From: Bradyrhizobium uaiense | GTDB lineage: Bacteria > Pseudomonadota > Alphaproteobacteria > Rhizobiales > Xanthobacteraceae | DNA length: 64,000 nucleotides | Assembly (NCBI RefSeq): GCF_010811875.1 | Contig: NZ_VKHP01000006.1 | Coordinates: 1-64,000 of the forward strand | Direction: 5' to 3' | Part shown: positions 15,551 to 51,108 of the stretch, one piece after another | How the letters are laid out: each line of letters starts with the position of its first letter | How positions within the stretch are numbered: the stretch's first letter is position 1 | Program-made: the position numbers and the translations under genes | The notes under the pieces: model-generated | Told to the model about the DNA's origin: nothing | The model's database searches: none | Seen by the model: the letters and a program-made list of their open reading frames with translations, nothing else

Positions 15551-17782
15551 TCACTGCGCCGGCGCTGCGTTGCTCTCCTGCGTCACGACGCGGTCGCCGC
15601 CCTTTGTCGCCACCGCCGTGCCTGCGTCCTCGAAGCGCGCGCGATAGACCGCGAAATTCTCCATCACGCGCTGGACGTAGTTGCGGGTTTCCGAGATCGG
15701 GATCCGCTCCACCCAGTCGACCGGATCGACTTTGGGATCGCGCGGATCGCCATAAGCCTTGATCCAGTCGCGGACACGGCCGCGGCCGGCGTTGTAGCCG
15801 GCAAACGTCATGATGTGGCAGTTGCGATATTCGGACAGCAGCGCGCTGAGCTCGGCCGCGCCCATCTGGGTGTTGTAGACCGGATCGGACACCATCCGGC
15901 TCCAGTCATAGCTGACGCCGAAGCGCTTTGCGGTGTCGCGGCCGGCTTCGGGTGTGACCTGCATCAGGCCGACGGCGTTGGCCGCCGATTTGTCGCGCTG
16001 GTCGAACGCGCTTTCGGTGCGCGCAATCGAGTAGGTCATGCTGCGCCCGATATCGGGAGCGATCGGGGTGTGCTTGGGAATGCCGATCACCGGGAAGGCG
16101 TAATGGTCGAAGGTGAAGCCGCGGCCGAGCGCGATCTTGCCGATCTGCAGCATTGCGCGGGCATCGCTGTGGCGCCCGGTGAGTTCGCCGAGCGCTTCGA
16201 GCATGCCGACATCGGTGCTTTCTTCGGCGAGGTCGGCGGCGAAATAGAGCACGATGTCGGGCTCGCCGATCGCGTAGAGCATATCGGCGGCACGCACCCG
16301 CTCGTCGGCGGCCATGCTGTCGGCGCCGGCGGCCGGCGAGGGCGCGCGCAGCTCGATGCCGTCGCGGCCGAGCTTGGCCAGCGCGAGCTGGCCGTAATAG
16401 GCGGTCGGGTACCTTGCGGCGGCCTGGTAGTCGGCCCGCATCGCTGCGCTGTTGCCGAGCGCCTCGGCGGCGCGGCCGCGCCAATAGGCGGCGCGCGCCA
16501 GCACCGTCGGGTTGGTCTGGCCTTCGTCGATGTGCGCGAAATGCGCCGCGGCGGTTTTTGCATCGTCGAGATAGCGCAGCGCGATCCAGCCGCGCATGAA
16601 GTGCATGTCGGAGCGGTAATAGGGATTGTCCGGCGCCGCCGCGCCCCTGATCACGTCAGAGGCTGCCTGGTATTCGCCCTGATCGAGCAGCTTTCGGGAC
16701 AGGATGCGGCGCTCGCGCCACCACTGGTCGGTGTCCTGCTGCGCCATCGTCTCGGGTGCGGCTGCAATCGTCACGCGCGCGGCGTCGTCGATCCTGTTCT
16801 TTGCGAGCAGAAACTGAATACGGCATAGCGTGTAGCCGAGATCGCTACGCGCATCGGCCGGCACATCGTTAAGCGTGTCCTCTGCCTTGCTTGATTGCCC
16901 GCGAACTGCACCGCAGGCTTTCACGATGGCGAGCTCGTCGCTGCCGAGATGCTGCGCCGCGCGCCGGGCGCCGGCGAGATCCTTGGCGCCGATCCGCTTG
17001 TCCATGCGCGCGCGGTGGTCGTCACGCGTGAGCAGGTCTTTGAATGCGTCGTAGGCGTCGCTCTCGGTCCGGTCCAGCAATTCGTCCGAGCGCCACGCAT
17101 CGCGAACCAGCCGTGCGGCGCCGTCGCGGTCGCCTTCGGCCAGCAGCGTGCGGGCGAGCGCGAACTTGCCTTTGGCGCTGATCGGTTGATCGAGGGTGAA
17201 GCCGTGCACCGTGGCCGGATCGCTGCGCTCCTGCCACATCCGCGCTTCGGCGCGCTTGCGCATCAGCGTGACGCTTGGCCAGTCCGGGTTGGCGGTGATG
17301 AATGCCGCATAGCGGCTGAATGGTGCATTGGATTCGGAGTGGCGCAGCAGATACCACTCGACGAGCTTGCGCCCGACCGGGTCGGCGATCTTGGCCTGAA
17401 TATCGGTAGCGTCGTTGGTCTTGCCTCGGCGCGCGGCGATGATCGCATCCCTGACCATGGCGAGATCGCCGGACAGCTGCGGCCCGGCGGGTTTCTCAGG
17501 CTCTGATGCTTTCGTGGTCTCAGCCGATTTGGACGGAACGGATTTGGCCTTTGCGGATTTGTGTTTGTCGGCGCTGTGCCGGGCGTGCCGGCGTTTGCCG
17601 GAGGCCTCGCGCGCAGATTTGCTGCTGGCCTTCGAGCTGGCCTTGGCGCCATGGATCTTCTTGTCGCCGTGGCCGCTCTTGGCCTGGTGCTGGTGATGCG
17701 GCTTGGCGTCTGCCTTGATTGGAAGCAGCGCGAGCGCGGCGGCGGTGGCGAAGCACGCCAGCGGACGTAGGCAACGGTTCAT
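15551..17782 (-). CDS. slt: Soluble lytic murein transglycosylase
   Basis: A 743-residue periplasmic enzyme. A signal peptide (LACFATAAALALLPIKADA) is followed by a Lys/Ser-rich basic linker (about 25-95) and a long alpha-helical superhelix with TPR-like repeats. The SLT catalytic domain occupies the last ~170 residues, with catalytic Glu in SIARTESAF, then VGLMQVTPEAG, FAGYNAGRGRV and ETRNYVQRVMENF. It cleaves peptidoglycan to 1,6-anhydroMurNAc products. The start at 17782 is supported by a GGGGGA site upstream. It is divergent from the SMP-30 gene across about 300 bases. Confidence 0.92.
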   Translation of the reverse strand: MNRCLRPLACFATAAALALLPIKADAKPHHQHQAKSGHGDKKIHGAKASSKASSKSAREASGKRRHARHSADKHKSAKAKSVPSKSAETTKASEPEKPAGPQLSGDLAMVRDAIIAARRGKTNDATDIQAKIADPVGRKLVEWYLLRHSESNAPFSRYAAFITANPDWPSVTLMRKRAEARMWQERSDPATVHGFTLDQPISAKGKFALARTLLAEGDRDGAARLVRDAWRSDELLDRTESDAYDAFKDLLTRDDHRARMDKRIGAKDLAGARRAAQHLGSDELAIVKACGAVRGQSSKAEDTLNDVPADARSDLGYTLCRIQFLLAKNRIDDAARVTIAAAPETMAQQDTDQWWRERRILSRKLLDQGEYQAASDVIRGAAAPDNPYYRSDMHFMRGWIALRYLDDAKTAAAHFAHIDEGQTNPTVLARAAYWRGRAAEALGNSAAMRADYQAAARYPTAYYGQLALAKLGRDGIELRAPSPAAGADSMAADERVRAADMLYAIGEPDIVLYFAADLAEESTDVGMLEALGELTGRHSDARAMLQIGKIALGRGFTFDHYAFPVIGIPKHTPIAPDIGRSMTYSIARTESAFDQRDKSAANAVGLMQVTPEAGRDTAKRFGVSYDWSRMVSDPVYNTQMGAAELSALLSEYRNCHIMTFAGYNAGRGRVRDWIKAYGDPRDPKVDPVDWVERIPISETRNYVQRVMENFAVYRARFEDAGTAVATKGGDRVVTQESNAAPAQ

Positions 17783-18087
17783 TCCCTGGTCCCCCCTGAG
17801 AAACCATGAGGCACAAACAGAACGCGTCATACGGCGGCACAACCGCCGCAGATTATCACTACCCTCGATTCTCGAGTGTTAACGCTGCTGCAACTCAACA
17901 GGGAAACGCGGCGAAATATAGAATAGCACCGGCGGAACCCGCGGGAACCGGGGTTTATACGGGTGAAGAGCGGACGGATGGCGCCCCACCTTGCACGGTT
18001 CCATCGGAGATGTACCCTCGTTGCAAGCGCGCCGCGGGGGTTGCCGATGTCACAGATAGATCACTTGTTGCTATTCGGGGCGTCGTG
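17783..18087. other. Divergent intergenic region, no gene seen
   Basis: About 305 bases between the starts of the lytic transglycosylase (minus) and the lactonase (plus). It includes CGGCGGCACAACCGCCG, a small inverted repeat at about 17832-17848, and a relatively AT-rich stretch at 17850-17930. It presumably holds both promoters. The lactonase frame is open through most of it, but the encoded residues do not look protein-like. Confidence 0.4.
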
Positions 18088-18933
18088 ATGCCCAGCCTCA
18101 CGACCATCCTTGACGGCGGCCGCTATTTCGAAGGCCCGCGCTGGCATCGTGGGCGGCTGTGGTTCGTCGACTGCATGGCACGGACGCTGCTCAGCATCAG
18201 CCCGTCGGGCGACTTGCAGGAACATGCAGGGGTGACCGACGACACGCCGTGCGGCCTCGGCGTGCTTCCTGATGGCGATATCGTCGTGCTGACGATGTTC
18301 AAGAAGCGGCTGCTGCGTTTTTCGGATGGGGGGCTGACGCTCTATGCCGACCTGTCAGAGGTCGCGACCGGCACGATCGACGACATGATCGTCGACGGGC
18401 AGGGGCGCGCCTATGTCGGCGATCTCGGCTTCAATCTGCCGCCGCCGGAGGGCCGCGGCGCCGTCGGGAGGATCATCCTCGTGATGCCCGACGGCAACGC
18501 CCGCGTCGTCGCGGACGGCCTGCGTTTCCCCAACGGCATTGCGGTCTCGTCCGACCATCGTCGGCTCGTTGTCGCCGAAATGGATGGTGCTACGCTCGCT
18601 GACTACGACATAGCGCCTGACGGCGGCCTGAGCCTTCGCGGGCGGCTCGGCAGCGTCAACGAACCAGACGGCATCTGCCTCGATCGCGACGGGGCGGTCT
18701 GGGTCGCGTCATTCACCGAAGATGCGTTTGTCCGGATCGATCGCAACGGTGTGGAGCGTGCGCGCATCACGGTACCCGGCCGTCGTGCGCTCGCCTGTGC
18801 GCTCGGCGGCACCGAGCGCAGCACGTTGTTCTGCCTGAATGCGGAGACGTCCTACGAGGAACTGCGGAAAGGCAAATCGGTGTCGCGGATCGATGTCGTC
18901 GAGGTCGACACGCCGGGTGATGGCTATCCCTGA
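18088..18933 (+). CDS. SMP-30/gluconolactonase/LRE-family protein
   Basis: 281 residues from the ATG at 18088, about the usual length for the family. It has a six-bladed beta-propeller with the metal ligand Glu in FEGPRWHRGRLWFVD, the Asn in RFPNGIAVS and Asp in NEPDGICLDRDGAVW. These are the conserved calcium/zinc-site positions of SMP-30 lactonases, which open sugar or other lactones. No signal peptide is seen, so it is cytosolic. The substrate is not predictable from context. Confidence 0.85.
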   Translation: MPSLTTILDGGRYFEGPRWHRGRLWFVDCMARTLLSISPSGDLQEHAGVTDDTPCGLGVLPDGDIVVLTMFKKRLLRFSDGGLTLYADLSEVATGTIDDMIVDGQGRAYVGDLGFNLPPPEGRGAVGRIILVMPDGNARVVADGLRFPNGIAVSSDHRRLVVAEMDGATLADYDIAPDGGLSLRGRLGSVNEPDGICLDRDGAVWVASFTEDAFVRIDRNGVERARITVPGRRALACALGGTERSTLFCLNAETSYEELRKGKSVSRIDVVEVDTPGDGYP

Positions 18934-42470: not shown

Positions 42471-42652
42471 CACCGCGCTGCACCACCTGCCACGGCCACG
42501 GCGAAGTGGTCATCAGCATCACCGGGGAAGTCCGCCCGCCGAAGCTCGGCGAGGCCACCACGGACGATTGCCCGACATGCGGCGGTACCGGCGCGGCGCC
42601 TGGCGCCCGTGATGAGCTGGTAGCGCTCGATGGCGTGACGGAGACCGCTTGA
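42467..42652 (+). CDS. DnaJ-type zinc-finger-like small protein
   Basis: 61 residues from the ATG at 42467. Two CxxCxGxG motifs (CTTCHGHGE and CPTCGGTGA) resemble half of the DnaJ cysteine-rich zinc-binding region. No J domain is present. Start and stop both overlap neighbours (ATGA; TTGA with the terminase gene), so it is tightly coupled to the large terminase. Confidence 0.65.
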   Translation: MTPRCTTCHGHGEVVISITGEVRPPKLGEATTDDCPTCGGTGAAPGARDELVALDGVTETA

Positions 42653-43968
42653 CCACACTTCGCCTGCCCACCGCTGAGGTATTCGAGCCGCTGTTGAAGC
42701 CGGCGCGCTACAAGGGCGCGTATGGCGGCCGTGGCTCGGGCAAATCCCATTTCTATGCGGAGCTTGCGGTTGACCAGGCGCTTGGCTTCCCGGGCGAGAA
42801 CGCCGGCGAGGGGCTGCGCATTGTCTGCGTCCGCGAGGTGCAGAAGGACCTTTCGCAGTCATCCAAGCTCATCATTGAGGACAAGATCCGCAAGATGGGC
42901 CTTGGCGCGGCCGATGGCTTCAAGATCTGGAAAGACCGGATCGAGTTTCCGGGCGACGGCATCGCCATTTTCAAGGGCATGAACGACTACACCGCCGAGT
43001 CGGCCAAGTCGCTCGAGCGGTTCAAACGGGCGTGGATTGACGAGGCGCAGACCCTTTCGGCGCGATCGCTCTCGCTGCTGCGGCCGACCATTCACCGCTG
43101 GGCCGGCTCCGAGATTTGGGCGAGTTGGAACCCGACGCGGAAGAGCGACGCGATTGATGAGTTTCTCCGCAATCCGGCTGGGCTGCCGTCCGGCGCCGTT
43201 GTGGTGCAAGCTAACTGGCGCGACAACCCGTTCTGGAACGCCAGCGCCGAGGAAGAGCGCCTCACCGAGCTGCGGCTCTACCCCGAGCGCTATCCGCACA
43301 CCTATGAGGGCGAGTACGCCAAGGCATTTGAAGGCGCCTATTACGCCAAGATGCTGGCGGAGGCCGCGATGCAGAAGCGCATCGTTGCGAACCTCTCGGT
43401 TGAGCCGCTACTCCCGATCCGCGCCTATGTCGACATCGGCGGCGCCGGCGCGAACGCTGACGCCTTCACCATCTGGATTGTGCAGTTCGTCGGCGATGAA
43501 ATCCGGGTTCTCGACTACTACGAAGCCCGCGGGCAGGTGCTCGCCTATCACGTCGACTGGCTGCGCAAGCATGGTTGGGAAAAGGCTCACATCTATCTGC
43601 CGCACGATGGCGTGAATTCCAACGCCGTCACCGGCAAGCGGTATGAGGACCATCTCCGCGAGGCCAACTTTCAGGTGACCGTCATTCCCAACCAGGGGAA
43701 GGGCGCCGCCGCGCAGCGCATCGAGGCTGTCCGCCGCCTCGGCCCGAAATACCGCTTCCATGAAGCCAACACCGAGGCCGGCCGCGCCGCGCTCGGCTTC
43801 TACCACGAACGAAAAGACGAAGTCCGCAACGTCGGCTTGGGACCGGAACACGACTGGTCCAGCCATGGTGCGGACAGCTTTGGCTTGATGGCCGTTTGTT
43901 ACGAGCCGCCGGCGACCTCAGCCAATTTCAACAGGCCGCTCAACTATGTGGGTAAGGGATGGCGATGA
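42649..43968 (+). CDS. terL: Phage terminase large subunit
   Basis: A 439-residue DNA-packaging motor with a TTG start overlapping the previous stop. Walker A is GGRGSGKS (residues 26-33). Walker B ends in Asp-Glu at 131-132 (RFKRAWIDEAQTL). The C-terminal RNase H-like nuclease has an acidic residue in IRAYVDIGGAGANADAF (about 260) and the late SSHGADSFGLMAVCYE. It belongs to the PBSX-type terminase group. It cuts concatemers and pumps DNA through the portal. Confidence 0.92.
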   Translation: MTTLRLPTAEVFEPLLKPARYKGAYGGRGSGKSHFYAELAVDQALGFPGENAGEGLRIVCVREVQKDLSQSSKLIIEDKIRKMGLGAADGFKIWKDRIEFPGDGIAIFKGMNDYTAESAKSLERFKRAWIDEAQTLSARSLSLLRPTIHRWAGSEIWASWNPTRKSDAIDEFLRNPAGLPSGAVVVQANWRDNPFWNASAEEERLTELRLYPERYPHTYEGEYAKAFEGAYYAKMLAEAAMQKRIVANLSVEPLLPIRAYVDIGGAGANADAFTIWIVQFVGDEIRVLDYYEARGQVLAYHVDWLRKHGWEKAHIYLPHDGVNSNAVTGKRYEDHLREANFQVTVIPNQGKGAAAQRIEAVRRLGPKYRFHEANTEAGRAALGFYHERKDEVRNVGLGPEHDWSSHGADSFGLMAVCYEPPATSANFNRPLNYVGKGWR

Positions 43969-44180
43969 CCGCAGAGCAAGTACGCATGTGGCTCGAGTTC
44001 GAGAAGACGAAACGGGAAATCAAAGAGGCGCTCTGGCAGGTGCCGGCCGATATAGACCGCGCCAAGGTGCTGATTTCCAAGAAAATGGGCATCCTGATCG
44101 CGCTCGATGAGCGCCCGGTGAAGCTCAAGACGCCGGTCATTCACATCATTGAGCCCGATAGCGACGCGCTAGCGGCTTGA
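43965..44180 (+). CDS. Small hypothetical phage protein
   Basis: 71 residues; ATG overlaps the terminase stop (ATGA). Helical N-terminal half (EQVRMWLEFEKTKREIKEAL), then ISKKMGILIALDE. Its last codons are within the phased repeat array at 44157. Unknown function. Confidence 0.55.
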   Translation: MTAEQVRMWLEFEKTKREIKEALWQVPADIDRAKVLISKKMGILIALDERPVKLKTPVIHIIEPDSDALAA

Positions 44181-44184
44181 TAGC
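44157..44184. repeat. GNTAGC array at 11-bp spacing before a start codon
   Basis: GATAGC (44157), GCTAGC (44168) and GATAGC (44179), then a decayed AGCAGC (44190), spaced exactly 11 bases. The array straddles the 3' end of one gene, and the ATG of the next follows at 44199. The spacer GGGAG is the ribosome site, as AGGGG is at 41245-41249. Confidence 0.75.
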
Positions 44185-44198
44185 GGGAGAGCAGCAAT

Positions 44199-44447
44199 AT
44201 GAAGCCAATCCAAACGGAACACACGAATGCGGTTCTCGGTGCCCCGCCAAACTGGGACGCCGAGGCGAATGGTCCATGCGGTGGCCTTCCGGTGCTTGTG
44301 CAGGATGAGGGCGGTTTGCCCGCGTTCTATTCGTACTGGCGCCCGACATGGCGCGAGCGCTTCGAAATTCTGTTCGGGCGACTGATTCGACTTTGTGTCG
44401 TCGGCCGCACGCATGCGCCGGTCCATCTCGATACCGAGCTGATTTAA
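44199..44447 (+). CDS. Hypothetical phage protein
   Basis: 82 residues, ATG right after the phased array. Includes PPNWDAEANGPCGGLPVLVQ and a Trp/Arg-rich WRPTWRERFEILFGRLIRL. The family is known only as hypothetical proteins in rhizobial prophages, from memory. A hairpin follows at 44455-44471. Confidence 0.55.
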   Translation: MKPIQTEHTNAVLGAPPNWDAEANGPCGGLPVLVQDEGGLPAFYSYWRPTWRERFEILFGRLIRLCVVGRTHAPVHLDTELI

Positions 44448-44454
44448 CAACCGC

Positions 44455-44471
44455 GCTGGCCGGACGCCAGC
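44455..44471 (+). terminator. Small hairpin between phage genes
   Basis: GCTGGC / GCCAGC stem with 5-base loop, followed by ACCCTTCAATCT. A similar hairpin sits before the gene at 44809. Possibly an attenuator. Confidence 0.35.
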
Positions 44472-44497
44472 ACCCTTCAATCTAAGAGGAATATTCA

Positions 44498-44737
44498 ATG
44501 GTACACGCATCGCAGCAGTCTGTTGGCTTTACGAAATACTCGCCGTCTGAGACCGAACAGAAGAGCTTGGAGAACCGCGCCTGCGGCGCCTCCCGCGAAT
44601 GGACCGTCGCCGAGCTGATTGAGAGCCGCATCGCCGATCACAGCGCAAGACTGGCGGCGTTGAGGAGCCTCTCCGATTCGCTGCCCGCCTCCTTCCTGAA
44701 TAGTGGCTCGTCCCGCATCAGCGCCCTCCTCAAGTAG
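44498..44737 (+). CDS. Small hypothetical phage protein
   Basis: 79 residues, preceded by AAGAGGAAT. Soluble and helical (EWTVAELIESRIADHSARLA). Unknown function. Confidence 0.5.
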   Translation: MVHASQQSVGFTKYSPSETEQKSLENRACGASREWTVAELIESRIADHSARLAALRSLSDSLPASFLNSGSSRISALLK

Positions 44738-44766
44738 GTATCGATCCAAACGATCGATCCAACCGC

Positions 44767-44783
44767 GCCGGGCGGCTCCCGGC
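44767..44783 (+). terminator. Hairpin with pyrimidine tail
   Basis: GCCGGG / CCCGGC stem with loop CGGCT, followed by ATTCTCTCTAAT. It is placed between two small genes and is terminator-like. It may reduce or attenuate transcription into the genes that follow. Confidence 0.45.
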
Positions 44784-44808
44784 ATTCTCTCTAATATTGG
44801 AAGTGAAT

Positions 44809-45054
44809 ATGACGACACACGTCACAGTCAGCGTGAACGGCCGCTACAAGGCCATCGTTCATCAGGTCTACGGCAATGGCGCCACGTCCGGCCCGACCGT
44901 CGTTCATGGCCGTTACGAAGGATCGCCGAACCCGTCCGGGGAGCACACCTTCTATCTGTCTCACCCGGCGCATTCGACCTTCGTGGTGCACGAAGAGTAT
45001 CTGCGCGAGGAAGCCGTGCAGGCCTCAAAGAATGAGGTGCCCGCGAATGGCTAA
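44809..45054 (+). CDS. Hypothetical phage protein
   Basis: 81 residues from the ATG at 44809 (GGAAG upstream). Beta-rich sequence (HVTVSVNGRYKAIVHQVYGN, HTFYLSHPAHSTFVVHEEY). Unknown function; overlaps the next gene by 8 nt. Confidence 0.6.
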   Translation: MTTHVTVSVNGRYKAIVHQVYGNGATSGPTVVHGRYEGSPNPSGEHTFYLSHPAHSTFVVHEEYLREEAVQASKNEVPANG

Positions 45055-45415
45055 CGTCATCATCCCACCGACCGTGGGTCGCGTCGTCTGGTTTCGTCCC
45101 AGCGAGTTTGACCCGATCACTCGCTGTGACCAGCCGCTTGCGGCGCAAATCGCTTACGTCTGGAACGATCGTCTGGTCAATCTCGGCGTTCTCGATTCGA
45201 ACGGCGCGCCGCACGGCCGCACTTCGATAACGCTGATCCAGGCGGGCGAAACTGCGCCCGAGGGCGCCAGCTACGCCGAATGGATGCCCTATCAGCAGGG
45301 GCAGGCAGCGAAGACGGAAGCCGCGGAGGCCAAGGCCGCTGCCGTCGCGACCGATACCGCAACTCAGGGCGCTGGCGCGTCCGGTGCAGAGAGCACCGAG
45401 GACGCCAATGCATAG
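45047..45415 (+). CDS. Hypothetical phage protein
   Basis: 122 residues from the ATG at 45047. An N-terminal beta-rich part (GRVVWFRPSEFDPITRCDQP, RTSITLIQAGE) is followed by an Ala/Glu/Thr-rich tail. It resembles common small rhizobial phage proteins located near a DUF2829 gene. Unknown function. Confidence 0.6.
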   Translation: MANVIIPPTVGRVVWFRPSEFDPITRCDQPLAAQIAYVWNDRLVNLGVLDSNGAPHGRTSITLIQAGETAPEGASYAEWMPYQQGQAAKTEAAEAKAAAVATDTATQGAGASGAESTEDANA

Positions 45416-45707
45416 CTTTGGCATCGGCCGCGCCGTCAAGGAGATGCAGGAGGGGCGGGCGGTGCGCCGGGCCGGGTGGAATGGCAAGGGCATGTTCATC
45501 GTGCTCATGCCGGCGCTCCAACTGCCGCCCTACAATACGCAGGGCACCGAGCGAAAGGTCAACGATCGCACCGCGAAGTGGATCGGCGAAGATCAGCCGC
45601 TCGACTGTCAGCCCTATATCGCGATGTACACCGCGGCGAAGCAGTGGCAGCCCGGTTGGTTGTGCTCGCAGGCCGACTTGCTCGCGACCGATTGGGAAGT
45701 GGTCTAG
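45408..45707 (+). CDS. DUF2829 / Tad2-like anti-defence protein
   Basis: 99 residues from the ATG at 45408. The pattern FGIGRAVKEMQEGRAVRRAG followed by WNGKGMFIVLM, then PYIAMYTAAKQWQPGWLCSQ and ADLLATDWEVV, matches the DUF2829 family. The Tad2 members of this family bind cyclic ADP-ribose-type signals and block the Thoeris immune system. Whether this member binds such signals is inference; the overall pattern is complete. Confidence 0.82.
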   Translation: MHSFGIGRAVKEMQEGRAVRRAGWNGKGMFIVLMPALQLPPYNTQGTERKVNDRTAKWIGEDQPLDCQPYIAMYTAAKQWQPGWLCSQADLLATDWEVV

Positions 45708-45713
45708 CCAGCC

Positions 45714-45917
45714 ATGAAGCCCGTCAAATCCTCCACCATCGAAGCGGTCGGGCATGATCCCGACCGCAAGGTGTTGACCGTCCGTTTCAACAGCGGCGCG
45801 ACCTACACCTATGAAGGCGTATCCGCCGATCAGCACTCCGCACTTATGGGTGCAAAGAGCGTCGGTACGCACTTCTCGCAACACATCCGCAACCGCTTCA
45901 AGGCCACCAAAGCCTGA
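45714..45917 (+). CDS. KTSC domain protein
   Basis: 67 residues: VKSSTIEAVGHDPDRKVLTV then FNSGATYTYEGV and SVGTHFSQHIRNRFKATK, the full KTSC domain. KTSC proteins are small beta-rich domains common in phages and near nucleic-acid enzymes. The function is not known. It lies between the Tad2-like gene and the portal. Confidence 0.85.
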   Translation: MKPVKSSTIEAVGHDPDRKVLTVRFNSGATYTYEGVSADQHSALMGAKSVGTHFSQHIRNRFKATKA

Positions 45918-45919
45918 CA

Positions 45920-46495
45920 ATGGCGAAAATGGACACCTTGACGGTTCAGTCGCTCGTCGGCTCCCAGCGAGCCGACGCGCTGGCTGCCATGAGCGCGGCG
46001 CAGCTCGCTGAAGAGCGCGCCCGCGCCATGGATTACTACCTCGGCAACATGGACGAGGACATGCCGCCGGAAGATGGGCGGTCGCAGGCGGTGTCAACCG
46101 ACGTTTCCGACACGATTGAGGGGCTGCTGCCGCAGCTCATGGATATTTTCGCCGGCTCTGATGAGGTGGTGGTTTTCGAGCCAGTTGGGCCCGACGACGA
46201 AGACGCCGCCGCACAGGAGACTGATTACGTCAATCACGTCTTCATGCAGCAGAATTCTGGCTTCATGGTGCTGTATTCGCTCTTGAAGGACGCGCTCCTC
46301 TCAAAAGTCGGCATCGTCAAGGTTTGGTGGGACGAGCGCGAGGAAGAGCAGCAGGATACGTTTTACGACCTGTCCGAGGATCAATTCGCGCTGCTCGCGC
46401 AAACCGTCGCCGAGTCGGATGGCCAGCTCGAGATAGTCGAGCACACCGCACATGACGGCAGCGGCAACCCGATCAAGAGCGAGGCCACATCTTGA
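45920..46495 (+). CDS. Phage portal protein, N-terminal part (split gene)
   Basis: 191 residues matching the first part of P22-type portal proteins: helical N-terminus (RARAMDYYLGNMDEDMPPED), DVSDTIEGLLPQLMDIFAGS, then KVGIVKVWWDEREEEQQDTF and the end of the first wing region (EIVEHTAHDGSGNP). It stops at TGA 46493-46495, where an intact portal would continue. The rest is at 46818-48530 in another frame. The next gene starts on the overlapping TTG. Confidence 0.8.
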   Translation: MAKMDTLTVQSLVGSQRADALAAMSAAQLAEERARAMDYYLGNMDEDMPPEDGRSQAVSTDVSDTIEGLLPQLMDIFAGSDEVVVFEPVGPDDEDAAAQETDYVNHVFMQQNSGFMVLYSLLKDALLSKVGIVKVWWDEREEEQQDTFYDLSEDQFALLAQTVAESDGQLEIVEHTAHDGSGNPIKSEATS

Positions 46496-46818
46496 GCGAA
46501 ATCAGGGGCGCTGTTCGCCCATTCTGCGTTGCCATCGACTATGACGATACGTTTTCAACGTGTCCGGAGACGTGGGGCAAGGTCATTGAGGTGTTGCGCC
46601 AAGCTGGCGCGCGCGTGTTCTGTGTGACCTTCCGGCGCCCGGATATGGTTGTCACCGACTTCCCCGGCGAAGTGTTCTACACGGCCGGCCGCCTCAAGGC
46701 GGACTTCATGCATGACCTCAAGCAGGATGTGCATGTGTGGGTTGACGATCGGCCCGAGCTCATCGGCGAAAACCCGGAGCGCCGCCGGTTCCGGGAAATC
46801 CTTAACGAGGCTGTCTGA
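46492..46818 (+). CDS. HAD-superfamily-like protein inserted in the portal
   Basis: 108 residues from a TTG overlapping the stop of the portal N-part. The HAD motif I is VAIDYDDTFSTCPETW (DxDDT), motif II-like VTFRRP and motif IV-like VHVWVDDRPELIGENPERRR. It is probably a small phosphatase or a nucleotide-handling enzyme. Its stop overlaps the ATG of the portal C-part (TGATG), so the three ORFs form one coupled unit. Confidence 0.7.
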   Translation: MSEIRGAVRPFCVAIDYDDTFSTCPETWGKVIEVLRQAGARVFCVTFRRPDMVVTDFPGEVFYTAGRLKADFMHDLKQDVHVWVDDRPELIGENPERRRFREILNEAV

Positions 46819-48530
46819 TGGCTGCCAATCCAGCACAATTGCCCGTTCCTGCCGCGTCCGGGGTTCCGATCCCGCCGATGGCAGCCCCATTGCAGGGGCA
46901 AATTCTCCCCCCGGCGCCGACGTTTCATGACGTCACAGTGCGCTCTACGCGCAAGCTTGCCCGCGTCAAGGTGATGGGCGTTCCGCCGGAAGAATTCGGC
47001 ATTGAGCGGGGCGCGCGCACCATCCAGGAGAGCAATTACTGCTTCCATGACGTTGTGACGAAGACTGAGGCCGAGCTCATCGGCGAGGGCTTCGACGCCG
47101 AGCAGGTCAAAGGCCTTTCGTCTTACACCGGTCAGACCGATATCGAGACGCTCGAGCGCGACACGGTCCAGGAACACATGTTCCAGACCAACGATACCAA
47201 CAGCGCAGCGCGCCTCATCAAGATCACCGAGCATTATGTTCGGCTGGACTATGAGGGGAACGGGCGCCCCGGCCTCTATCAGGTCGTGACTGGCGGCGAT
47301 CAGGGCGAGATCCTCAGAAAGGACGGTAAGCCGTCCATCGAGCGATTCGACGCGATGCCGTTTGCCGCCACGTCGCCTATTCCGATGACCCACCGCTTTA
47401 TCGGCCGATCGGTGGCCGATGTGGTGATGCCGGTCCAGCGTGAAAAGACCGCCATGAAGCGCGGCGCGCTGGACAACCTCTATCTGCACAACAACCCGCG
47501 TGTTGAGGTGTCAGAGCAGCACGCCGGCCCGAACACGCTGGATGACCTGTTGGTGTCGCGCTCGGGCGGTGTGGTGCGCGTCAAACAGCCTGGCGGCATC
47601 AATTGGCAGGTGGTCCCTGACATCACGGGGTCAATCTTCCCGGCGATGCAATATCTGGACGCCGAGCTTGAGACCCGGACAGGCCTGACGAAGCAGGCGC
47701 AGGGCATAGACGCCAACGCGCTGCAAAATCAGTCGGCGACGGCGACGGCGCAGGTATTCTCGGCATCGCAGATGCGCATCAAGCTGATGGCGCGCATCAT
47801 CGCCGAGGGTGTCCGGGACATGTTTTCGCTCGTGCACGCCACCATTCGCAAGCACGGCCAGCAATCCGAGACGGTGAAGCTGCGCCGGCAGTGGGTCGCT
47901 GTCGACCCGCGCGAGTGGAAAGAGCGCGACCACATGACCATCAACGTCGGGCTCGGGACCGGCGGCAAGGCGCAGCAGTTCGCGCAGACCATGGCAATCG
48001 CCAACGTCCAAAAGGAGATGGTTGCGGCTGGCAAGGTCAATATTGTTGGCGATACCGAGCTCTACAATACGGCCTGCGAGCTCACCAAGATCATGGGCCA
48101 CAAGAACGCGAATCGGTTCTTCAAGGATCCTGCAGCGAAAGACCCGCAGACCGGGCAGCTCCTCAACCCGCCACCGCCACCGCAGCCGGACCCCAAGACG
48201 CAGGCCATTCAGGCGCAGTCCCAGGCGACAATGCAGGAGCAGCAGCAGCGTTCCCAGCTCTCGCAGCAGGAAACGCAGCTCGAGGCCCAGTTGGCGCAGA
48301 TGAAGGCCGAAATTGACGCGAAGCTCAAGCTGCTAGATGCGGCGATAAACGCGCGGGCGGCCGATCGTACCCACCAACATGACCACGAACGCCATCAAAT
48401 CGGCGTGGCGCATGACGTGCTGGGCATCATCGCCCACGCGCACGCCCACGATACGTCGATGGCGCAAAAGCATGCCGACCATGAGGCGAGGCAGGCTCAA
48501 ATGGAGAGCAGTGCAGCCAATGCAGATTGA
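46818..48530 (+). CDS. Phage portal protein, C-terminal part (split gene)
   Basis: 570 residues. The first ~35 are Pro/Ala-rich linker (PAQLPVPAASGVPIPPMAAP), then the portal continues at FHDVTVRSTRKLARVKVMGV. Typical portal features follow: PPEEFGIERGARTIQESNYC, HRFIGRSVADVVMPVQREKT and ALQNQSATATAQVFSASQMR. The end is a long Gln-rich and His-rich helical barrel (LSQQETQLEAQLAQMKAEID). Together with the N-part (191) it totals 761 residues, close to P22-type portals. Confidence 0.85.
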   Translation: MAANPAQLPVPAASGVPIPPMAAPLQGQILPPAPTFHDVTVRSTRKLARVKVMGVPPEEFGIERGARTIQESNYCFHDVVTKTEAELIGEGFDAEQVKGLSSYTGQTDIETLERDTVQEHMFQTNDTNSAARLIKITEHYVRLDYEGNGRPGLYQVVTGGDQGEILRKDGKPSIERFDAMPFAATSPIPMTHRFIGRSVADVVMPVQREKTAMKRGALDNLYLHNNPRVEVSEQHAGPNTLDDLLVSRSGGVVRVKQPGGINWQVVPDITGSIFPAMQYLDAELETRTGLTKQAQGIDANALQNQSATATAQVFSASQMRIKLMARIIAEGVRDMFSLVHATIRKHGQQSETVKLRRQWVAVDPREWKERDHMTINVGLGTGGKAQQFAQTMAIANVQKEMVAAGKVNIVGDTELYNTACELTKIMGHKNANRFFKDPAAKDPQTGQLLNPPPPPQPDPKTQAIQAQSQATMQEQQQRSQLSQQETQLEAQLAQMKAEIDAKLKLLDAAINARAADRTHQHDHERHQIGVAHDVLGIIAHAHAHDTSMAQKHADHEARQAQMESSAANAD

Positions 48531-48867: not shown

Positions 48868-50076
48868 ATGACCGACGCAACCCGCCTTAACGCAAGCGTG
48901 AGCCACATCTCCATGATGCAGCGGCCCTTTGGCGCGCCGCGCATTCACATGGATGAGGGCGCTTCCGGCGGTGCGCCCGCTGGCGGCTCTGCGCCTGCTG
49001 CCGGTGGCGATTCGGCCACCGCGATGCCGGAAAGCTTCGATTCGGTCGATGGGGCGATGCGCTTCCTGTCGTCGCGCCCCAAGCGCGAGCAGGCTGCCGC
49101 ATCTGACACCGGCACCAACGATAATTCGTCCGCAGAGCACGCCGATGCCGGCGCCGCGGATGACAATGCATTGTCCGATGAGGGCAACGCCGCCCCGGGT
49201 GAGAACCCGGCTCTCGGCGAAGATCAGGACGTCGACCCGGCCGCCAATCAGCCGCCGCCCATCGAGCGTCCGAAGTCTTGGGCCAAAGACGAGCAAGCCG
49301 AATGGGATGGTCTCCCGCGCTCCCTGCAAGAGAAGATTGCAGCCCGCGAGGACGCCCGCGACAAGGCCGTTCGGAAAGGCCAGAACGACGCCGCTGAAAA
49401 GCTCAAGGGCCTCACGGCCAAAGAGCAGGCGGCGGAACAGGCGCGTACTACCTATGAGCAGAACGCCCGCGCCGCGCTGGACATTCTCGCAAGGGAACAG
49501 CAGCGCGATTTTGCCGACATCAAGAGCGTTGAAGACGTCACCAAGCTCGCACAGACGGACCCGCTGCGGTACATCCAGTGGCAGGCCCATCAGTCGCAGA
49601 TTGCTGCCGTCAAGAACGCTGTCGACGATGCCGACAAGCGCAAGGCTGACGAGACTGCCAATGCGTGGAAAACCTTCCGGCAGACGGAAGACGCAAAGGC
49701 AGCCGAGCATATCCCCGATCTGGCGGATAAGGCCAAGGCGCCGAAGCTCATGGAAAAGGCCGTCTCGCTTCTGCAAAAGATTGGTTTCACGCCGGAAGAG
49801 CTCGGCAAGTACGACGGCGGCGAAAAGCTCTCGCTTTTTGACCACCGCGTGCAACGACTTCTCTTCGACGCGATCCGCTATAGCGACTTGCAGGCAGCGC
49901 GAACGGCCGCCGTCACCAAGGCCGTGCCGCCTGTTCAGCGCCCCGGAGTGAAGCAGCCGACCGGCAACGCCAACTCCGAGCGCGTCCAAGCCCTCAACAC
50001 TCGTCTCAACAATTCCGGCGACATCATGGACGCGGTGAGCCTGCTCCAGGCCCGTCGCTCCTCGAATCGCCGGTAA
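48868..50076 (+). CDS. Probable scaffolding protein
   Basis: 402 residues, highly charged and helical with disordered Ala/Gly/Asp-rich N-terminal third. The segment PKSWAKDEQAEWDGLPRSLQ and long coiled coils (ARTTYEQNARAALDILAREQ) fit scaffold proteins that precede the capsid gene. A long antisense ORF over this region is a shadow. It assists procapsid assembly with the portal. Confidence 0.75.
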   Translation: MTDATRLNASVSHISMMQRPFGAPRIHMDEGASGGAPAGGSAPAAGGDSATAMPESFDSVDGAMRFLSSRPKREQAAASDTGTNDNSSAEHADAGAADDNALSDEGNAAPGENPALGEDQDVDPAANQPPPIERPKSWAKDEQAEWDGLPRSLQEKIAAREDARDKAVRKGQNDAAEKLKGLTAKEQAAEQARTTYEQNARAALDILAREQQRDFADIKSVEDVTKLAQTDPLRYIQWQAHQSQIAAVKNAVDDADKRKADETANAWKTFRQTEDAKAAEHIPDLADKAKAPKLMEKAVSLLQKIGFTPEELGKYDGGEKLSLFDHRVQRLLFDAIRYSDLQAARTAAVTKAVPPVQRPGVKQPTGNANSERVQALNTRLNNSGDIMDAVSLLQARRSSNRR

Positions 50077-50097: not shown

Positions 50098-51108
50098 ATG
50101 TCCACTCCTACCAACACTTTCGGAACGGGCACTGCCGTCGGCAACCGCGAAGACCTGTCGGATATGATCTATCGTATCGATCCGACCGATACGCCGTTCA
50201 TGAGCGCGATCGACAAAACGAAGGCGTCCGCAGTCAACCATGAATGGCAGACGCAGGCTCTGTCTCAGCCCGACAACAACAACGCGCAGCTCGAGGGCGA
50301 CGATCCGGAGACCAACAACGCGCCGCCGACCGTGCGCCTGTCGAACGTCGCCCAGATTTCGTACAAGGTGGCGCGCGTCTCGGGTACCCAGCAGGCGGTT
50401 GACCACGCTGGCCGTGACAACGAGCTTGCGTATCAGGAAATGCTGCGCGGCCTCGAGCTCAAGCGTGACCTTGAGTACATCCTGCTCGGCAACCAGGCGA
50501 AGTCCACCGGCAACTATGTCGGCGCGATCCCCACGCCCGGCTCGCCGAATGCTCCGCGCTACACGGCCTCGGTGCTGTCGTGGATCATGACCAACACCTG
50601 GAAGAACTCGGCCGCTGGCGGCGCCGATCCCACGGCGGCTGACGGCACCGGCACGCGCACCGACGGTACGCAGGTCGCGTTCCGCGAAAACCAGCTCAAG
50701 GGCGTTCTGGCCTCGATCTGGACCAACGGTGGCAAGCCGAACATCATCATGACCGGCTCGTTCAACAAGCAGGTGTTTTCGACCTTCACCGGCCGCGCCA
50801 CGACCGTGCAGGAGAGCAAGAACAAGACCATTCAGGCGTCGGTTGACGCCTACGAGTCGGACTTCGGCAAGCTCAAGGTGGTCGCCAACCGCTTCCTGCG
50901 GAAGGACGCCAACAACAACGTTGGCCGTGACACGTTGGTGCTGGAAACCGGCAAGTGGGCCGTAGCCTACCTGAATGGCCGAAACATGATTTCGATCCCG
51001 CTGGCGAAAACCGGCGATTCGGATCGTCGTCAGATCCTCGCCGAATATGCGCTGGAGGCCCGCAACGAGAAGGCTTCCGGCGGCGTGTTCGATCTCACCG
51101 CAGCCTAA
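50098..51108 (+). CDS. Major capsid protein (DUF5309, SU10 type)
   Basis: 336 residues with the DUF5309 start TNTFGTGTAVGNREDLSDMI then YRIDPTDTPFMSAIDKTKA. Further family parts are QISYKVARVSGTQQAVDHAG and GLELKRDLEYILLGNQAKST. HK97-like fold expected. It follows the scaffold gene by 21 nt. Confidence 0.92.
   Translation: MSTPTNTFGTGTAVGNREDLSDMIYRIDPTDTPFMSAIDKTKASAVNHEWQTQALSQPDNNNAQLEGDDPETNNAPPTVRLSNVAQISYKVARVSGTQQAVDHAGRDNELAYQEMLRGLELKRDLEYILLGNQAKSTGNYVGAIPTPGSPNAPRYTASVLSWIMTNTWKNSAAGGADPTAADGTGTRTDGTQVAFRENQLKGVLASIWTNGGKPNIIMTGSFNKQVFSTFTGRATTVQESKNKTIQASVDAYESDFGKLKVVANRFLRKDANNNVGRDTLVLETGKWAVAYLNGRNMISIPLAKTGDSDRRQILAEYALEARNEKASGGVFDLTAA

Follow-up and report, generated by a model that had tools for sequence, protein, structure and literature searches.

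Can a phage portal be built from two separately translated polypeptides, with the gene of an unrelated protein lying between their two genes? This question is raised by a locus of Bradyrhizobium uaiense, in which the frame coding for the first part of a portal ends at a stop codon, is followed by a HAD-like ORF and then continues in another frame. The window, which is the whole stretch of DNA that was analysed, has a length of 64,000 nucleotides (contig NZ_VKHP01000006.1, positions 1 to 64,000 of the forward strand) and contains a prophage head-gene block consisting of terminase, small ORFs, portal N-part, HAD-like ORF, portal C-part, scaffold and capsid (Table 1). The gene order terminase - portal - scaffold - SU10-type capsid is present, and what is interposed are small accessory ORFs only. 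The genes immediately 5' of the portal N-part are a Tad2-like gene and a KTSC gene.

Table 1. Features of the window and of related loci (positions refer to the window unless a locus is named)
Feature	Position	Strand	Match or description
Terminase large subunit	42649..43968	+	PF04466, 7.1e-18
Small accessory ORFs, terminase-portal interval	43959..45917	+	
Tad2-like ORF (Thoeris anti-defence)	45384-45707	+	PF11195, 6e-22
KTSC-domain ORF	45714-45917	+	PF13619, 2.1e-20
Portal N-part, 191 aa, putative first part of wing domain	45920..46495	+	PF23899 positions 3-163, E 2.4e-55
Junction 1	46481..46495	+	GAGG 46481-46484, 7 nt, TTG of HAD-like ORF over N-part TGA
HAD-like small protein, 108 aa, TTG start; cargo gene	46492..46818	+	phrog_4256, 1e-21
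Junction 2	46807..46820	+	GAGG 46807-46810, 7 nt, C-part ATG 46818 within TGATG
Portal C-part, 570 aa	46818..48530	+	PF23899 positions 170-592, E 1.1e-126
Head scaffolding protein	48868..50076	+	phrog_3927, 2.5e-22
Major capsid protein, SU10 type	50098..51108	+	PF17236, 4e-90
Tailed proteins, examples	L062:2837-3586, L074:3077-4384, L075:4244-5395, L150:2783-3679		
Nuclease/immunity-like ORFs	L106:8884-10440, 17184-18179, 18194-18646; L108:14928-15800; L152:5138-5983		

The sequence and the ORF calls agree with the sequence-only reading on the three ORFs, their coordinates and their overlaps: N-part, HAD-like ORF and C-part are in frames 2, 1 and 0, respectively, and are joined by TTGA (46492-46495) and TGATG (46816-46820), with a GAGG exactly 7 nt 5' of the start codon at both joints. 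Together, the two portal ORFs cover the profile SU10_portal (PF23899, Pfam) nearly end to end (positions 3-163 and 170-592 of 593), and a profile search of the window's own genome found no further match. As this portal is encoded by two ORFs in different frames rather than being one polypeptide, it is classed as a split variant derived from SU10_portal and not as an ordinary member. The summed length of 191 + 570 = 761 aa is normal for a portal, as had been claimed, the chains of PaP3, Pa223 and SU10 having 705, 706 and 747 aa.

The portals of PaP3, Pa223 and SU10 (PDB 7sxk, 9nwm and 7z44) are related in sequence to both parts, which they match in the same order and over almost their entire length, but each of them is one polypeptide, whereas the portal of the window is encoded by two genes, with the cut apparently in the wing loop. 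Residues 20-168 of the N-part align to residues 27-169 of the Pa223 portal, and the family profile of the C-part aligns to residues 180-677 of PaP3 and 179-678 of Pa223. In P22, the trigger loop of the wing spans residues 226-277 and holds KRRR (272-275), the strand pairing with residues 226-229; the counterpart of KRRR in Pa223 is KKKR (190-193) (PMC13386823). Pa223 KKKR is aligned to RKLA in the first strand of the C-part, with two of the four residues being basic and the position counted by eye. The ends of the alignments, together with the position of KKKR and RKLA, place the cut in the loop between two strands that are paired in P22: judged by alignment, the portal would be cut in the wing loop, which is the trigger loop of P22. 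With a cut at this position, each portal subunit is probably a non-covalent pair of one N-part and one C-part.

Residues 8-44 of the SU10 portal form a helix along the capsid (PMC9509320). The wing would begin with the N-part, on the side facing the capsid; alignment of the C-part to whole portals assigns it the remaining wing together with stem, clip, crown and barrel. The AF2 model of the C-part alone is poor (pLDDT 57.5, pTM 0.27); its best fold matches are portals, with the P22 portal among them, and given the low confidence of the model they serve as agreement only. It is only in these fold-level matches that the P22 portal appears, and the initial description as a 'P22-type' portal has been replaced by SU10/PaP3-type, the family of PF23899.

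Relatives of the C-part, some close and some remote, occur in 45 of 265 genus genomes, on 23 viral contigs and on two GTDB contigs (one of the latter with a match of 17 residues only), and relatives of the N-part are encoded by 261 viral stretches, from which 80 loci were retained. Both parts are present at 120 non-redundant loci, 113 of them split and seven fused; only exact duplicates were removed, so that close relatives are counted several times. Loci L127-L205 (n = 79) comprise 75 split loci, one fused locus and three without a C-part before the end of the stretch. Among the seven fused loci, five are remote relatives with a C-part identity of 24-50%, the two close ones being L079 (68%) and L169 (61%); with a C-part identity of at least 55%, 110 of 112 loci are split at the same site and two are fused. 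A split site recurring at 113 non-redundant loci is more than chance, and the split arose long ago in a lineage of Bradyrhizobium phages and has been retained there. The sequence-only reading had proposed to search for the same split in other Bradyrhizobium prophages, where it indeed recurs, ppUSDA76Be-2 included; with 110 of the 112 non-redundant relatives split, the window does not hold a rare broken variant, which had been named as a possible refutation. The identical break in these 110 relatives also rules out a sequencing error or a recent frameshift. Second, partial copies of the C-part, mostly corresponding to about residues 325-517 of the query, are present on the contig of the main copy in four genomes (G064, G240, G127 and G098) and on another contig in G204.

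The portal could still be a decaying pseudogene of a defective prophage, its overlaps being accidental. An internal stop in one of the parts is indeed present at three of the 113 split loci (L066, L150 and L197, all of the wide-spacing subgroup), indicating that some copies decay, and some loci have extra partial portal copies. However, the best match of either part is free of internal stops at the other 110 split loci, the site is the same in 110 of 112 close relatives, and both portal parts are under strong purifying selection: dN/dS of the N- and C-parts is 0.01-0.19 in 26 hand-picked pairs (three of them with the fused L079, one N-part value undefined; many dS values are high). As a prophage with a split portal is moreover reported to produce particles (see below), decay is a highly improbable explanation.

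The two parts are also inherited together. Distances between N-parts are correlated with distances between C-parts (Mantel r 0.84, n 98, p 0.001; best of 999 permutations 0.30; the set being the 98 of 113 split loci that passed the coverage cut-offs), and N- and C-part co-occur on all 22 viral contigs L005-L026 and at 31 of 35 genome loci (L057-L091), these 31 including two fused ones. At the four genome loci without N-part (L058, L061, L069 and L091), a contig end is no more than about 2.4 kb away from the C-part. This bears on the idea that the portal works with the C-part alone and that the N-part has been repurposed, for example as an assembly factor or regulator, a new role that separate translation would permit. 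Against it stand the co-occurrence of the parts, the equally low dN/dS of N- and C-part, the fused locus L079, where both parts have been joined again, and the C-part itself, which lacks the first 169 profile positions. At the level of sequence, the latter contradicts the possibility, raised earlier as a second refutation, that the 570-residue part is a whole portal, to which its poor fold model adds nothing; we consider a portal without N-part improbable.

In its compact form, the joint between N- and C-part consists of overlapping stop and start codons, mostly with a GAGG-like sequence closely preceding them. Less than 100 nt separate the N-part stop from the C-part match at 31 loci, and at 29 of these, TGATG or TAATG overlaps join the N-part directly to the C-part. 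An SD-like tetramer is found at positions -20 to -5 at 26 of these 31 loci, compared with 13.8% of random 15-mers, a count that is partly confounded by the coding for the EATS residues; given this signal, the frequent SEATS-stop ending of the N-part is at least partly the reading of GAGGC...TGATG. In the entire set of 113 split loci, 30 have a stop-start overlap between N- and C-part and 62 have an SD-like tetramer. The spacing between the halves varies widely, from an overlap to 5580 nt: 31 loci have less than 100 nt, 23 have 100-500 nt and 59 have at least 500 nt, many of the latter with separate ORFs between the parts.

At the 30 loci where the N-part stop lies over the C-part ATG, the C-part is in the -1 frame, which would permit frameshifting, and an intron, an intein or programmed frameshifting could in principle restore one chain. 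This is scarcely credible: the final 45 nt of the N frame contain no X-XXY-YYZ heptamer at any of these 30 loci, neither the window nor ten related loci has any Rfam match at gathering scores, and with that no group I/II intron core, and neither part carries an additional domain, the N-part stopping shortly beyond its portal homology. Restoration is also at odds with the inserts of at least 500 nt at 59 of the 113 loci, many of which have their own ORFs. Introns and inteins, as well as programmed frameshifting, were thus rejected, and the two-piece reading is retained.

Phage ppUSDA76Be-2 (OP596614, ppBeUSDA76-2) provides a split portal in a prophage for which particles are reported. Its portal (N-part 72% and C-part 67% identical to the window) has the same split with a direct TGATG joint and no gene between the parts, whereas the window has the HAD-like gene there. 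ppUSDA76Be-2 is described as a podophage that B. elkanii USDA 76 produces spontaneously, with a 57-nm capsid in TEM, and the prophage region is strongly read-enriched in DNase-treated particle preparations; the link from the genome to the podophage seen in TEM is a capsid phylogeny, the data of which are not displayed there, and the word 'portal' does not occur in the paper (mBio 2023, PMC10127595). A figure of a USDA 76 prophage elsewhere has one gene labelled as portal without specifying which. In the GenBank record OP596614.1, the portal C-part (L002:6001-7608) has no CDS and the N-part is named hypothetical. We infer that ppUSDA76Be-2 uses its split portal, while its genome might hold another portal gene. 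Together with the conserved split in 110 of 112 loci, the low dN/dS and the co-inheritance of N- and C-part, this particle-producing prophage supports the earlier claim that the tidy overlaps reflect a working two-piece portal and not a simple frameshift.

Outside the genus, 14 genomes of a 397-genome sample of the order have matches: eleven have a full-length single portal ORF and the other three have partial matches only, inside long open frames of 721-826 codons. The portal open frames of the family genomes G382 and G482 have 737 and 739 codons. In six phages of other hosts the portal is a single CDS of 706-743 aa, which in five of them covers the C-part match and extends well upstream; in the sixth, Microcystis phage Mvi-Yong1342-1, the 726-aa CDS begins two codons inside the N-part match, and the record also has a 56-aa CDS just 5' that is named portal protein. 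Portals of the other genera and phages examined are hence intact.

Two trees were constructed from the C-parts, the first with 66 rows (without the short L094 and L096) and the second with 78 rows (without L092, L093, L095, L101 and L119, and with 17 chosen rows added); alignment A1 has 35 chosen rows. In these trees, which both have long outgroup branches, the split rows form one group beside the intact L090 and L100, which L169 joins in the second tree, with L079 and L122 as exceptions. In both trees, the fused L079 is nested among the split loci. At its junction, an N-part-like tail and the proline-rich leader of the C-part have been kept, while the SEATS-stop/TGATG stretch of its split relative L145 is missing; L079 looks like a re-fusion by deletion of the joint. 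L122, which is split and has a HAD-like ORF, branches outside the fused L090 and L169 in the second tree, which would require the portal to have been split twice or re-fused more often, unless this long branch is misplaced.

What is the HAD-like ORF between the two halves? It has no match in Pfam or PADLOC, a single NCBIfam match far below cut-off, and a match to phrog_4256, a family of unknown function. HAD superfamily phosphatases are marked by a DxDxT nucleophile motif, a lysine and an acidic pair; all three are present, and D16xD18xT20, K69 and D85-D86 are invariant in six of six aligned HAD-like sequences. The AF2 model has a pLDDT of 87; no Foldseek match was found at E <= 0.001, and the top VIA-align matches are mainly HAD enzymes with Z of up to 7.0, where unrelated proteins reach 6. 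The best one, the T4 Pnkp 3' phosphatase, is middling (Z 7.0, rmsd 3.7, 91 residues aligned). From motif and model, the protein is probably a small capless HAD phosphatase that acts alone, its activity being predicted.

The HAD-like ORF is found in one of the 265 genus genomes, namely that of the window itself. Among its relatives, one lies between N- and C-part (L122) and one 3' of the C-part (L123), and in the stretches fetched for three more (L124-L126) no portal part was found. At L122 (L122:2063-5078), the split portal is diverged (N 58%, C 51%) and the HAD-like ORF is 74% identical to that of the window, hinting at exchange of cargo genes between phages. Translation of the HAD-like ORF between the two parts, and its relative at the same place in L122, could indicate that the enzyme has a function within the portal or the packaging machinery. 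This is very unlikely, as the gene is restricted to one genus genome, other relatives than that of L122 lie 3' of the C-part or in stretches where no portal part was found, and other split loci have different inserts or none. As the spacing between the halves can be anything from an overlap to about 5.6 kb, the HAD-like gene counts as optional cargo rather than as part of the portal. The earlier reading of an embedded enzyme is amended accordingly, the HAD-like ORF being an optional passenger.

At 49 of the 113 split loci, many of them on Bradyrhizobium chromosomes, the parts are at least 1 kb apart. L128 and L200 share the same IMG genome number (IMG/VR 2908756301), the one having a compact and the other a wide-spacing split portal. 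A C-terminal tail of the PAGGLLGMIQDYMRNN type closes 40 of 366 ORFs between the parts, at 30 of the 113 loci, and elsewhere is found in four of 1141 ORFs upstream, in none of 835 downstream and in none of 2493 on the other strand; these counts refer to ORFs of at least 90 codons, stop to stop, with a pattern composed after viewing the sequences, plus-strand ORFs being non-redundant, the minus-strand control not, and related loci being counted several times. The N-terminal regions of the tailed proteins differ. Ten tailed proteins were scanned with Pfam: two have an M23 peptidase domain (L137, 1.1e-11; L152, 3.7e-4, under cut-off) and one a sub-threshold DUF6973, the L137 protein lying 5' of the N-part and not between the parts. 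Cluster ORFs include WHH and AHH nucleases and a SUKH immunity protein (L106), NucA/NucB (L108) and an Ivy-like protein (L152), of which the latter alone sits between portal parts; those cargo ORFs that were compared with Pfam include no homing endonuclease. That the tail serves to sort polymorphic effectors is a lead and not a result. The larger scenario is speculative and rather unlikely: the portal cut would be a cargo-loading locus, the PAGGLLGMIQDYMRNN-like tail would dock cargo to the portal or head, particles would be effector-delivery devices of Bradyrhizobium, and splitting would have enabled the uptake of cassettes.

We conclude, with a probability of roughly 0.86, that this SU10/PaP3-like prophage portal is made as two separately translated polypeptides, with a joint that tolerates inserts and a HAD-like passenger. 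Ribosomes finishing the N-part would immediately start again on the C-part, the two chains would meet via the strands flanking the wing loop that holds the cut, and twelve such pairs would form the ring, with the N-part as its capsid-facing wing part and the C-part as the rest of the channel. The joint would accept extra genes that bring the same kind of start and stop signals: in the window, the HAD-like gene would start at the old upstream signal and supply a new GAGG...TGATG for the C-part, its product being a passenger that probably acts alone in the infected cell. The portal would thus be naturally split, long kept and with cargo between its parts, its two-chain state being read from the genes.

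Portal subunits are one chain in those relatives outside the split lineage that were compared, and a lineage keeping a two-gene portal would show that assembly survives a cut in a wing loop; a natural two-component portal is a test case for ring assembly. Stop/start overlaps may let phage operons admit new genes inside a former single gene. The GenBank record of ppUSDA76Be-2 is a warning for annotation, as both parts of such a portal can be overlooked.

A description of a split portal was not found in searches of open-licence PMC papers, some on Bradyrhizobium phages included. There are known parallels among other phage genes: NrdA of Aeromonas phage Aeh1 is interrupted by the mobE gene and consists of two working chains. 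The OM43 phages MEP401/402 have a split DNA polymerase (PMC10580990). In both cases, as in the window, the two pieces of an essential phage gene are separated by another gene. However, NrdA and the polymerase are enzymes, whereas the split portal is a structural protein that forms a ring, and its inserts are many and diverse.
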